In this document: positions 11,340-15,682 of the stretch, piece by piece
Layout: every line of letters starts with the position of its first letter
Position numbering within the stretch: the stretch's first letter is position 1
Assembly (NCBI RefSeq): GCF_025024155.1
Contig: NW_026251790.1
Coordinates: 1 to 64,000, forward strand
DNA length: 64,000 nucleotides
From: Gamsiella multidivaricata
Lineage: Eukaryota > Mortierellomycota > Mortierellomycetes > Mortierellales > Mortierellaceae
Direction: 5' to 3'
Notes under the pieces: model-generated
Database searches by the model: none
Seen by the model: the letters and a program-made list of their open reading frames with translations, nothing else
Told to the model about the DNA's origin: nothing
Translations under genes and position numbers: made by a program

Positions 11340-12045
11340 GAACCCAGATATGGCACAGGAAGGTGTGGGCAATGGCCAATGCTGGCGGAGCAGCAGCTGC
11401 ATGGGATGATACATTTGAGTGCCACAGGGTTTGAGGAAACCAAAAACAGGGGTGGCAGCTGAAGTGCTGGTCTGAGGTACAGCAGCGCATGGACTAAACT
11501 AAGTGTGCGGAGAAGCGGGATGCGCGATCGATCGAAGGAATAAGGGTGTGCATGTGTCTTCGGAAGGTGGCACGACTTCGATGCGGGGATATGGGTGCAC
11601 AACAATGCACAGTACTCTGCAGGCCGTATTCTCCGAGAGACACTGCGACACATTTCTCTCGCAAGCACCCTTCGGGTTGTTTTCTTTTCATTTGGCGCCC
11701 TCGGCTGATTGGCCAATTGCGGCCATTTGCCACCGACCTTGTATTTTGAGTTCTGTGCCTGACTCTGTGCCTGGCTCTTTTACCTGGAATGGCACACAGC
11801 TGGATGCACAAGGTTGCGCACGGGCTGTGTGCACGCAGTGTGAGAGCACATCAAATAGCCGGGCAACAATGACCGGAGTATGTCTCACATCCGAGCGCCA
11901 TGCGACGATGCATCTTCCAACAATTGCTGGGGCGCACCGTGCAGCACAGAGACATTCCTTTCCTTGCCTTACCTTGCCTTTCCTTGCCTTTCCTCGCCCT
12001 TTGCCGCCTTTCCTTGCCTTCCTTGCCTTCCTTGCCTTCCTCGAG
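11340..12045 (+). promoter_or_regulatory. Upstream region of the repeat-peptide gene with CCTTGCCTT array
   Basis: No gene is visible here. The last 85 bp (about 11956-12040) is an almost pure pyrimidine array of CCTTGCCTT-like units, directly followed by a TATA box. Such C/T blocks next to TATA are common in strongly expressed fungal genes. Confidence 0.5.
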
Positions 12046-12053
12046 TATAAATA
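12046..12053 (+). promoter_or_regulatory. TATA box (TATAAATA)
   Basis: A full TATAAATA match lies 165-172 bp before the start codon of the repeat-peptide gene and right after the pyrimidine array. It is one of the clearest core promoters in the window. It predicts a transcription start near 12080 and a leader of about 135 nt rich in CA. Confidence 0.7.
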
Positions 12054-12217
12054 CAAGATCATGTCCCCCAGTTTCGGTTCGTATTTTCTTCACACAACAG
12101 ATCCCATCTCATCCCCACTACTTTCCCTTCTCTCTTCTTCGCGCCTACAGTAGTCCCCTACTTTACGAACACCTGCCCTAATCCCACGCTCGTACACATA
12201 CACATACACAACACACC

Positions 12218-12850
12218 ATGAAGATCCAGGCCAGTCTGATTGCTGCAGTCATCCTCACCATTGCTGGTGTCAAGGCTTTGCCGATTAACCCGGAGGCTGT
12301 CGGTCCTAATATGCGTCTCCCAGTCATGGAAATGAAGGAAGCTATCAACCCTCGCATGCGCCTTCCAGTGATGGACCTCAAGGAGGCTATCAACCCTCGT
12401 ATGCGTCTCCCAGTCATGGATCTCAAAGAGGCTATCAATCCCCGCATGCGTCTCCCGGTCATGGATATGGAGGAAGAAGCTGTTGGTCCCCGCATGCGTC
12501 TCCCAGTCATGGAAATGAAGGAAGCTATCAACCCTCGCATGCGCCTTCCAGTGATGGACCTCAAGGAGGCTATCAACCCTCGCATGCGCCTTCCAGTGAT
12601 GGACCTCAAGGAGGCTATCAACCCTCGTATGCGTCTCCCAGTCATGGATCTCAAAGAGGCTATCAATCCCCGCATGCGTCTCCCGGTCATGGATATGGAG
12701 GAAGAAGCTGTTGGTCCCCGCATGCGTCTCCCAGTCATGGAAATGAAGGAAGCTATCAATCCTCGCATGCGTCTCCCAGTCATGGAAATGGAGGAAGAAG
12801 CTGTTGGTCCCCGCATGCGCCTTCCAGTCATGGATCTCGAGGAGAACTAA
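12218..12850 (+). CDS. Secreted tandem-repeat peptide precursor (12 repeats)
   Basis: Single-exon gene of 210 residues, not assigned to a known family. Residues 1-20 form a textbook signal peptide (hydrophobic core AAVILTIAG, cleavage after VKA). The rest is twelve repeats of 15-16 residues with the invariant hexapeptide MRLPVM. The usual unit is EAINPRMRLPVMDLK; variants use VGPR for INPR and MEMK, DMEE or MEMEE at the end. The copies group into a higher-order pattern: one GP copy, several INP copies, then a copy ending EEE. Eleven of twelve hexapeptides follow Pro-Arg (the first follows Pro-Asn). There is no cysteine, no dibasic Lys-Arg site and no membrane segment. The TATA box and pyrimidine block argue for strong expression. 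Likely a polyprotein precursor of small secreted peptides, or a structural wall or matrix protein. Confidence 0.85.
   Translation: MKIQASLIAAVILTIAGVKALPINPEAVGPNMRLPVMEMKEAINPRMRLPVMDLKEAINPRMRLPVMDLKEAINPRMRLPVMDMEEEAVGPRMRLPVMEMKEAINPRMRLPVMDLKEAINPRMRLPVMDLKEAINPRMRLPVMDLKEAINPRMRLPVMDMEEEAVGPRMRLPVMEMKEAINPRMRLPVMEMEEEAVGPRMRLPVMDLEEN
12293..12840 (+). repeat. 45/48 bp coding tandem array, 12 copies
   Basis: Near-identical DNA units of 45 bp (48 bp in copies with an extra Glu codon) sharing ATGCGTCTCCCAGTCATG or close variants. Whole blocks of four to five units are duplicated almost base for base, which indicates recent unequal exchange. Because the unit is a multiple of three, two spurious frames stay open on the opposite strand. 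Confidence 0.9.
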
Positions 12851-15682
12851 GAGCACAGCACCCAGCGACCACACCATGCTCAACCACATAGGGTTCTTCA
12901 CCTCACGAGGCAGTTTCTCTTCTTTCATTCTCTACTATACCCATCCTGCATAGCGATTAATATCTCAGTTCTCGTAATGGCTAATTGTACATATTGCAAT
13001 AAACTACTTGTCTTTTCAATTTACTCTGACCCACTTAAGAAACGAAGGATGCATCTCTGATATACTAAATAAATGGGTAGCTGAACTCGGTTTCCTTGTG
13101 CGAATGGATGGGGTATCTGTGTAAGAAAGACACCGGAAACGCGTGGTGAAAGAATGTCGCGTCTCGCTATGATTTTATTTGTCGTCCTGCTTCCGCTCTG
13201 TACATGAGATCACCCAGCCATACAACACCTCGAAAGCGGGTTCGCCATAAAGGTGTCCTCCAGCGGCGCCATTATTTTCTGCTGCAGTGTGCACGTTCCC
13301 CACAGCTCCCCTCTTTCGTTCGCCAGCGAGTTCTGATCAGTTCCATGGTCTTTGGATGCAACATGCACAAATAAAGATAACGGTGATAGCCGGATTCATT
13401 TGCTCGGGTCGAGGACAAGCAAGGCGACGTCGCAAACATGGGCCTGGTTGACCCCACTCTTCAGGTTGAGATCTTGTCCAGAGCTAAAGAGTGACCTGGA
13501 CTATGGCACACTGTGGCGATGGCCAGTATCGAGAGGGCTTGTGAGGCTATAGAACAGCCTGTGGTTCTAAAGCGGTGCTTTACGATTCTATGTAAACGAT
13601 AGTCTACTGCTGCTGCTGCTGCTGTAAAGTCGAAAGAGTGGTGTCGTGGGTAACAGTGCAGCAGCTGCGATTGGTTGGACTGTACTAGAAAGCGCCGCAG
13701 CATCTGGTGCCGGTTCGTCGCTTTTATTATTTTTTTATTGACGCGTCTTTGCAGCGTTTAGTGGACGCGTGAGGCTTGTGACAGCTAAATAAAGACGGCC
13801 AAGAGGACGTGCGCGTAGAACTTGTCTCTTCCCTTTCTGCTCTGCCTTCTCCTCCTCCCTTCATTGGCCCCTCCCTTCATCGGTCCCTCTCTTCCTGGTC
13901 GCCCTCCCTGGTCCGCCCTGTCAAGGTTACTGAAAAAGGTAATGGTAATGATGTGCTTGGTCCGAGTCAAGCTCGAGCAAGGCAGTGTTGAGCTCCTTGG
14001 GTGGAACCAAGTCACACCCCAGCTCTCTGCTGGCCTGGGTTGTCCACGTACTGGCTACGGTGCGTCGGGCTCTTGGGGTTGGAAGCATGTAAGTACGCCT
14101 GGGGCCAACACACTTGCACATCCATATTGCCGATGACCAGAACCACAGGAGGGGTACGTATCGTGCGTATCTCGTGGTGCTGTCCGCGCTTTAAAGCGGT
14201 GCTCTTTCTATTTCTTTTTGTTTGGCTTCGCAGACCTGGCTTTTGTCTTGAGGGACACTAGCACACTAGCTTCAGGTTCAAGTTGTCTTTCGGATGACGA
14301 GTAGTCCTTTTGGGTGACAAGTTCCTCTTTTGGATGGCTGTGACAGAAGACAACATGCACATGCACTTGATATGGGTGGAGCGAGCAATCCTTCATTCGT
14401 GCATGACTTTGCCACTGGGGAACACAAGATCTAGGGCTGTTTACAGCTCTCATTAACCACTACATTTTTTCTCAGCCTTATGACACCCGGTAGGCAACGC
14501 CCGATCTGTCCTCTTGGCTCCGACTCGTAGGTCTCTCTGCCCAAGCAAGCGCGGCTGGCAATATTTCCAGAGTATGGATTTAGCCAGCTGGACTGCCGGG
14601 TCATGATCACATCGCACTGGGGATGGTAGCGAGGTATTGTGGAGCCCTGATACGAGACAAGCGGGGTGGTAGGATGCCAATCCCACGAGTGCGCAACTCT
14701 GCGACATGAAAAGGAGCAGCATCCACAAGGCTCCAAGAATAGCCGCAAGCACCAGTCGAATAACAGATGGTTTGTCCACTATGTTATGATGGTTCGATGG
14801 TTTCTGTTCACTCTTCTCTAGGTTTATTCTTGGTTCAGCCTACGGCAGCAACTTTAGAGGCCTAGGTGAGAAACAATACTGCATGTCCACATGCACAAGT
14901 ACACTAGCTATTCCATTAGCAACAACAATAAAGTGAAGAAAAGTATAAAGACACGCGTCCATAATGAAAGAGTGGAGAAGGCCTCTAATAGGTATGTGCT
15001 GTATTTGGGTGAAGAGCAGGACCATTTGCACAAATGGACACATGTACGGAGCATAACAAACTAGAAAAAGAGAAAGGTAAGGAGAGATGCCGATGAAGCG
15101 AGTATGGTCTTCTGTTGCTCTAGTGCGATCCATGCGAATGTTCGACGTTGTATTGCAACGGGTACCGAGGTGTTCTTTTTTATTTTATACGTAATCATTT
15201 GTCTATGCGGAGAGGAGCGCGTTTTCCGCTGGTTTGACGAAAGGCGATAGGGATGCCGCTCGTGAAGAATCAGTCTCCTCTACATCGTAGATTGGCTTTG
15301 ATCTGGTTGACACGCGACGCACTACAACAGCAGACGCGTACACGTTGCGTGAGCTGGGACAACAAATATTTTCGTCAGAACTGAACAGTTCGCCTCTAAA
15401 CACTGAGCGCACTGCAGAGGATGGAGCAAAGCGAATACGGAGAGAAGGGAAAGACTTTTTTTTTCTTCTTTTTGACTCCTTATTCGTGCCAGAACAAGCC
15501 ATGGCCATTATGAACAATGGAAGCATCTGTTGATCACTGACATAGTCCACGTTCTTCTAGATACCCATGATAAAACAAAAGAGTTCCGAGCCTTTAAAGC
15601 TACATTTGCACATTAAATAGCGCAACCACCTTCATAATTAAGACCATATTTAATATTGTACAATGTTCAAGCCTTCGGATCT
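12851..15682. other. Long gene-free interval
   Basis: About 2.8 kb with no gene I can support. The first 170 bp holds the repeat-gene 3' UTR with an AATAAA at about 13002. A (CTG)6 run lies near 13607-13624. Five ACGCGT hexamers occur at 13139, 13741, 13765, about 14953 and about 15334. A hydrophobic minus-strand frame at 14453-14779 begins with GTG and has no ATG, so it was not accepted. Confidence 0.55.

Follow-up and report, generated by a model that had tools for sequence, protein, structure and literature searches.

The window analysed here is a stretch of 64,000 nucleotides that carries, on its plus strand, a gene encoding a signal-like start followed by a short leader and an array of near-identical units. 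We refer to this gene as copy A; it is the one member of a five-gene family that lies inside the window, and its features are the following:

11955..12038, plus strand: pyrimidine-rich tandem block of the CCTTTCCTTG type, present in copy A only
12046..12053, plus strand: TATA box TATAAATA, its TATAAA starting 172 bases before the ATG
12218..12850, plus strand: repeat-precursor gene copy A, one uninterrupted reading frame of 210 residues plus stop
12218..12277, plus strand: predicted signal peptide MKIQASLIAAVILTIAGVKA, placed by hydropathy, with V-[K/Q]-A directly ahead of LPINPEA in 5/5 copies
12278..12298, plus strand: leader LPINPEA, identical in 5/5 paralogues
12299..12847, plus strand: array of twelve units of 15-16 residues, the last one ending MDLEEN
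12311, 12356, 12401, 12446, 12494, 12539, 12584, 12629, 12674, 12722, 12767 and 12815, plus strand: starts of the MRLPVM cores
12851..14517, no strand: 3' flank of copy A, about 88% identical to the flanks of copies B and E
12998..13003, plus strand: AATAAA, a possible poly(A) signal
12158..12928 and 12178..12831, minus strand: long open frames over copy A

Residues 5-18 of the copy A product have a mean hydropathy of 2.49, compared with 0.41 for the best later 12-residue stretch, and we take the signal peptide to be cut after V-K-A, following the -3/-1 rule. The initial annotation had described a signal-like start followed by twelve units of 15-16 residues that all contain MRLPVM, Pro-Arg before eleven of the cores, Lys-Glu-Ala at many unit ends and a lack of dibasic sites, and each of these statements agrees with our counts in the single 210-codon frame: MRLPVM occurs twelve times, with Pro-Arg before 11/12 cores and Pro-Asn before the first; the inter-unit linkers end in Lys-Glu-Ala (8/11) or Glu-Glu-Ala (3/11); and KR, RR, KK and RK are absent from copy A and likewise from its four paralogues. 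TRF reported a higher-order period of 228 bases at 12311-12844: the series of DNA versions in units 2-5 recurs in units 7-10, a recent internal duplication.

Both upstream elements pointed out in that annotation, the TATA box and the pyrimidine block, are real, whereas their distribution differs: the block is private to copy A (it was not found in the aligned upstream regions of the four paralogues), and a ATAAATAC box is common to all five. The upstream DNA has diverged between gene types, B resembling E and C resembling D, but 5/5 genes retain the ATAAATAC box together with blocks from the 5' leader.

Five genes within inverted duplications

A search of the genome (37.5-Mb assembly, 180 contigs) with the copy A protein gave seven matches at five loci, all on contig C162, whose positions 1-64000 are the window, with the four paralogues B-E situated outside the 64-kb window:

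Copy A, 12218-12850, plus strand, 12 units
Copy B, 80757-81563, minus strand, 16 units
Copy C, 84473-84967, plus strand, 9 units
Copy D, 97600-98232, minus strand, 12 units
Copy E, 101142-101906, plus strand, 15 units

All five genes are intact and together comprise 64 units, and their products of 164-268 residues contain nothing beyond the predicted signal peptide, the leader and the repeats. Leader, core and C-terminus are common to the family, apart from one C-terminal residue that differs in D (MDLE[E/D]N). The predicted architecture of a secreted multi-copy precursor, with a signal-like start, a leader and 9-16 units, recurs in every gene, and the fixed core with variable copy number anticipated by the initial annotation is seen among paralogues (9, 12, 12, 15 and 16 units); the orthologues that it expected in related species were not found at E<=10 in limited protein searches.

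The family lies in inverted duplications, B-E and their flanks being 92-99.6% identical to one another. B/C and D/E form divergent pairs that are mutual inverted duplicates (4146 bases at 98.4%), with further flank sharing at 121-124 kb of the contig. The contig contains nested inverted segmental duplications at 76.8-85 kb, 97.6-105.9 kb and 120.7-123.8 kb (92-99.6% identity); in the last of these the flanking DNA is present and no precursor gene was found. The similarity of the 3' flank of copy A to those of B and E is a trace of segmental duplication. An ORF adjoining the duplicated segments resembles, by eye, an IS630/Tc1-type DDE transposase, without a Pfam match at 0.001.

A DNA pattern for PRMxLPVM has 63 exact matches in the 37.5-Mb assembly, all within the five genes, compared with none for the reversed control; being an exact pattern, it would let degenerate units elsewhere in the assembly slip through. 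Within the window, the corresponding degenerate DNA pattern is matched exactly at 11 sites, compared with 0 in each of 100 shuffles. Likewise, all 58 matches obtained at E<=10 with the leader plus first unit as query fall within the five genes. An exact PRMRLPVM scan gave single matches in 3 viral-contig stretches and 64 bacterial or archaeal genome stretches, which is the chance level; because each of the latter (n = 64) carries just one match, clusters of core matches are not attributable to chance.

Protein searches, which require shared 5-residue words, identified no relatives at E<=10 among 4907 and among the best 8000 candidates, with related Mortierellaceae represented in the database. 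Small repeat genes often go unannotated. Among the best 120 of 7996 matches, a conserved neighbour on the contig, ribulose-phosphate 3-epimerase, is 89% identical to its counterpart in Mortierella antarctica, 88% in Actinomortierella ambigua, 87% in Modicella reniformis and 82-85% in three others, at 74-80% query coverage in these six Mortierellaceae; Mortierellaceae being closest, the source is a member of this family of soil fungi. The string MRLPVM is absent from all 5.39 million papers searched, and the family is not described in the excerpts of the matches listed for Mortierella, Mucoromycota or Kex2 secreted repeats, RiPPs, secretomes or peptide precursors. Our best reading is that of a precursor family that is lineage-restricted and partly recently duplicated. 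Among the nearby ORFs scanned (nine including the precursor, then ten), none stands out as a protease or as an enzyme that would tailor peptides; the matches obtained point to ordinary genes, encoding a Ca2+ ATPase, glutamate dehydrogenase, a kelch protein, an MFS transporter, an AMP-binding enzyme, a patatin and others.

Conserved core and variable linkers

The core reads PRM[R/S]LPVM in 63/64 units and PNMRLPVM in the remaining one. Its P, M, L, P, V and M are invariant in 64/64 units, the Arg ahead of the core is kept in 63/64, and the Arg within it is replaced by Ser in 11/64. Outside the core, the third Met of the unit is often Leu or Ile. The linkers mostly follow [D/E][M/L][K/E]E(E)A, then IN, IS or VG, then Pro-Arg, and are five (48/59) or six (11/59) residues long, a variation that speaks against a rigid repeat fold. 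Glu-Ala closes 59/59 linkers and all five leaders; Lys stands ahead of it in 28/59 linkers and is missing in 31/59.

Two types of linker block can be distinguished, [K]EA-I[N/S] (28/28) and [E]EA-VG (30/31), such that the K/E and IN/VG positions flanking Glu-Ala are tied in 58/59 linkers. Synonymous sites between and beside these positions are far less tied (39 distinct of 59 records), and the linker therefore looks like one element. We considered this coupling as proof of a cutting register and set it aside, because synonymous differences are large (pS 0.46-0.69) and exchange between units inside the identical core would keep the same blocks.

Next, we asked how selection is distributed along the unit, using distinct DNA versions because the units duplicate and are hence not independent. 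The 64 units comprise 22 distinct versions of the 24-base core, encoding 3 peptides. A minimum spanning tree of these versions contains 23 synonymous vs 4 replacement steps, where a synonymous share of 25% is expected under an assumed transition bias. Based on 34 distinct 15-codon units out of 41 distinct (16-codon units were left out), pN/pS is 0.034 for the core (bootstrap 0.007-0.072) vs 0.36 for the linkers (0.31-0.42), with the core value above that of the linkers in 0/300 bootstraps. Whole-gene pN/pS, determined for four of the ten pairs, is 0.09 (B/E), 0.18 (C/D), 0.15 (A/E) and 0.14 (A/B). Purifying selection is concentrated on PRM[R/S]LPVM. A fixed core combined with a tolerant spacer is the pattern found in peptide precursors; the same conservation would also be expected if the core were what makes an uncut repeat polymer function.

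The minus-strand frames over copy A were considered as candidate coding sequences. One antisense frame, in phase with the gene, begins with a hydrophobic stretch and continues with HDWETH repeats; it is open in 5/5 genes, and copy A has a second open minus-strand frame. When all six frames were compared over 32 distinct 15-codon units, pN/pS was lowest in the sense frame (0.20), compared with 1.50 and 4.15 for the other sense frames and 0.92, 3.01 and 0.45 for the antisense frames; the frames at 12158..12928 and 12178..12831 correspond to 0.92 and 0.45, respectively. Antisense coding was rejected on this ground, and since the sense pN/pS is the lowest, the openness of the opposite strand is most likely a by-product of sense codon choice.

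Predicted processing and alternative readings

We hold with middling confidence that these genes form a family of five secreted multi-copy precursors of linear peptides, most probably cut after Pro-Arg and releasing 15-16-mers headed by M[R/S]LPVM. The chain would enter the secretory pathway, where a kexin-type or other single-Arg-directed protease would cut after (I/V)(N/G)-Pro-Arg and before Met, and a Kex1-type carboxypeptidase may then trim the Arg. Linear peptides of 15-16 residues, for example MRLPVMDLKEAINP(R) and MRLPVMEMEEAVGP(R), would thereby be released and could serve as an extracellular signal or act in the interaction with other organisms. We infer that Pro-Arg before Met is the most economical cutting point, because it precedes 63/64 cores, would yield core-headed peptides of 15-16 residues with variable tails, and is matched by two kexin-type genes in the genome. 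The computed monoisotopic masses of the predicted products are as follows:

MRLPVMDLKEAINPR: 1781.964 (1625.863 without Arg), 16 copies
MRLPVMEMEEAVGPR: 1743.847 (1587.746 without Arg), 14 copies
MRLPVMEMKEAINPR: 1813.936 (1657.835 without Arg), 5 copies
MSLPVMEMEEAVGPR: 1674.778 (1518.677 without Arg), 5 copies
MRLPVMDLEEN (C-terminal product): 1345.637, 4 copies
LPINPEAINPR (leader product): 1232.688, 4 copies

The kexin-type genes, at least two in number, lie in tandem on contig C113 (184500-194400) and were recognized by P-domain matches and, by eye, subtilisin-like catalytic motifs on separate exons. Since kexins occur generally in fungi, finding them here gives no specific support. A duplicated kexin might permit differing cutting preferences. 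Kex2 accepts Pro at P2 less well, and the linker blocks can also be explained by simple exchange of units inside the core. No example of Kex2 cutting at Pro-Arg was found in the excerpts of the literature searched; PMC2515848 points to evidence that Kex2 sites can carry other residues at P2, and PMC9769878 describes products of fungal repeat precursors in Pichia that were apparently cut after a single Arg.

The main alternative, which we regard as plausible but on the unlikely side, is that the protein works uncut and belongs to the hyphal surface or matrix as a secreted, disordered and charged polymer of repeats, in which MRLPVM would be a binding or assembly motif. A canonical cutting site is absent from all five proteins, their linkers mix basic and acidic residues, and disordered secreted repeat proteins occur in Glomeromycotina, as passages of PMC8786786 report. 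An AlphaFold2 model, built from five close sequences, has a mean pLDDT of 42.9 and forms the signal helix alone; this lack of a confident fold fits disorder, as weak evidence given an alignment of so few sequences. A PDB sequence search returned no match at E<=10; neither did a fold search with the low-confidence model, which says little. NCBIfam matches are weak, for copy A far under the cut-off. Against a surface polymer, the proteins lack a GPI-type hydrophobic C-terminus (hydropathy averages -0.68 over the final 20 residues in copy A, and all five end in MDLE[E/D]N), and no Cys or N-glycosylation sequon is present in any of the five; no Pfam family lies above the cut-off for copy A, the other copies giving weak E-values only (best 0.0001). 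The variation in linker length also tells against it.

Alternatively, a peptide precursor could be read in another register, with cuts at Glu-Ala or Lys-Glu-Ala that would release peptides headed by (I/V)(N/G)PRM[R/S]LPVM, or with cuts at proline. The initial annotation had named both Glu-Ala as a Ste13-type code and the fixed prolines as possible targets of a prolyl oligopeptidase. Each unit can indeed be read as starting behind the ubiquitous Glu-Ala, and DPPIV-type and prolyl-oligopeptidase-type genes are present in the genome. We nevertheless consider this register unlikely: Lys precedes Glu-Ala in fewer than half of the linkers, we know of no endoprotease for Glu-Glu-Ala, and the K/E and IN/VG residues flanking Glu-Ala change together, as if the linker were one element. 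The Ste13 idea is weakened further because a dipeptidyl aminopeptidase needs a free N-terminus and thus a prior cut, and the prolyl oligopeptidase remains without specific support beyond the existence of such genes. Taken together, the peptide-precursor interpretation of that annotation is upheld in part: architecture, fixed core and non-dibasic Pro-Arg speak for it, and the Ste13 code, the prolyl oligopeptidase and the orthologues do not.

It is very unlikely that the products are Met-rich secreted binders of metal (Cu+), with M-x4-M-x-M providing thioether ligands. In the mature copy A chain 15.8% of residues are Met, both core Met are present in 64/64 units, and 3/5 members have a sub-threshold match to HMA_2 (heavy-metal-associated; 19.9 bits for copy A vs a cut-off of 30), but His, like Cys, is absent from the family, the third Met is frequently replaced, and our reading of the HMA_2 match is that it is compositional. 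A narrow literature search for metal binders of this type found nothing. Finally, a selfish or decaying functionless tandem repeat, spread by the segmental duplications in which the nearly identical copies B-E lie, has hardly any probability in our view, given five intact copies, the low whole-gene pN/pS (0.09-0.18 in the four pairs) and an upstream box preserved although the DNA around it diverged between gene types.

Relation to known precursor systems

The proposed precursors resemble the KEPs (Kex2-processed repeat proteins), which likewise combine a signal peptide, here predicted, with three or more near-identical repeats of at least eight residues, a fixed core and a variable spacer, no other domain being found. 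All five genes carry 9-16 tandem units of 15-16 residues behind a predicted signal peptide (hydropathy in copy A; V-[K/Q]-A site kept in five copies). KEPs are defined, in passages of PMC7329392, by KR, KK, RK or RR between repeats; because 0/5 genes contain any of these, Pro-Arg standing before 63/64 cores instead, the family is not a KEP by definition. The 39 Mucoromycota strains given in that source are mainly Glomeromycotina and Mucoromycotina, and 'Mortierell' does not occur in the main texts of PMC7329392 and PMC6339444.

Ascomycete alpha-type pheromone precursors also combine a repeated short peptide with Glu-Ala-bearing spacers. In these, as excerpts of PMC6339444 describe, KR precedes a Glu/Asp-Ala that is later removed by Ste13; in contrast, the family has no KR followed by X-Ala/X-Pro dipeptides, its Glu-Ala has no dibasic site ahead, and Pro-Arg lies between Glu-Ala and the core. 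A STE3 search gave 0 matches in the genome, the control genomes being equally silent. The family is thus built like a KEP or an alpha-pheromone precursor, yet departs from both the dibasic definition and the KR-Glu-Ala order.

Dikaritins (ustiloxin and phomopsin type) likewise derive from secreted precursors in which a short, fixed core is repeated. The dikaritin core requires Tyr, whereas PRM[R/S]LPVM and PNMRLPVM contain none and lack a Kex2 site; a UstYa (DUF3328) search found 0 matches in the genome and was equally silent in control genomes. The borosin core is fused to an N-methyltransferase, and none was present among the Pfam matches at E<=1 of the five members, which span 164-268 residues. 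The AGL/IDP repeat surface proteins of Glomeromycotina resemble the family in being secreted, disordered, repeat-bearing and lineage-specific in an early-diverging lineage. They are Pro/Gly-rich and generally predicted to be GPI-anchored, with exceptions (PMC8786786, in part); the family is Met-rich and without an anchor signal, the C-terminal hydropathy of copy A being negative and the five tails alike.

Tentatively, and with more doubt than conviction, we suggest that these genes form a class of their own among the multi-copy signal precursors of fungi, with Pro-Arg replacing a dibasic site as the cutting code and the product acting in Mortierellaceae as a peptide signal for mating, density or partner recognition. 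If this is true, the KEA-IN-PR and EEA-VG-PR linkers would give two peptide isoforms per gene. Passages of PMC7329392 and PMC6339444 present dibasic sites as the entry criterion of fungal repeat-peptide precursor surveys, and the latter states that, Mucoromycotina and Blastocladiomycota apart, the pheromones of early-diverging fungi are largely unknown. Because the usual cutting sites are absent, surveys keyed on KR/RR/KK/RK would not list the family, and five genes with 64 units, strong selection and the other hallmarks of a precursor thus fall outside the survey definition. Should the peptides be released, this would point to an overlooked processing rule, and early-diverging fungi may hold more such signals.

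Precursors with the same linker and another core were sought with the pattern E-A-[I/V]-[N/G/S/D]-P-[R/S], which has 81 matches in the assembly, 63 in the family and 18 single ones elsewhere, compared with 3 for the reversed control. The 18 outside matches exceed the control, and no two lie within 10 kb. None of the 3/18 sites checked reads the motif in an open frame of at least 40 residues; one is on contig C96, and the other two are identical sites in an inverted duplication on contig C68. This duplication (257000-275000) comprises 2819 bases at 99.97% and 1777 bases at 98.9% identity, so that the genome has large inverted repeats, or assembly haplotypes, outside the precursor contig as well.
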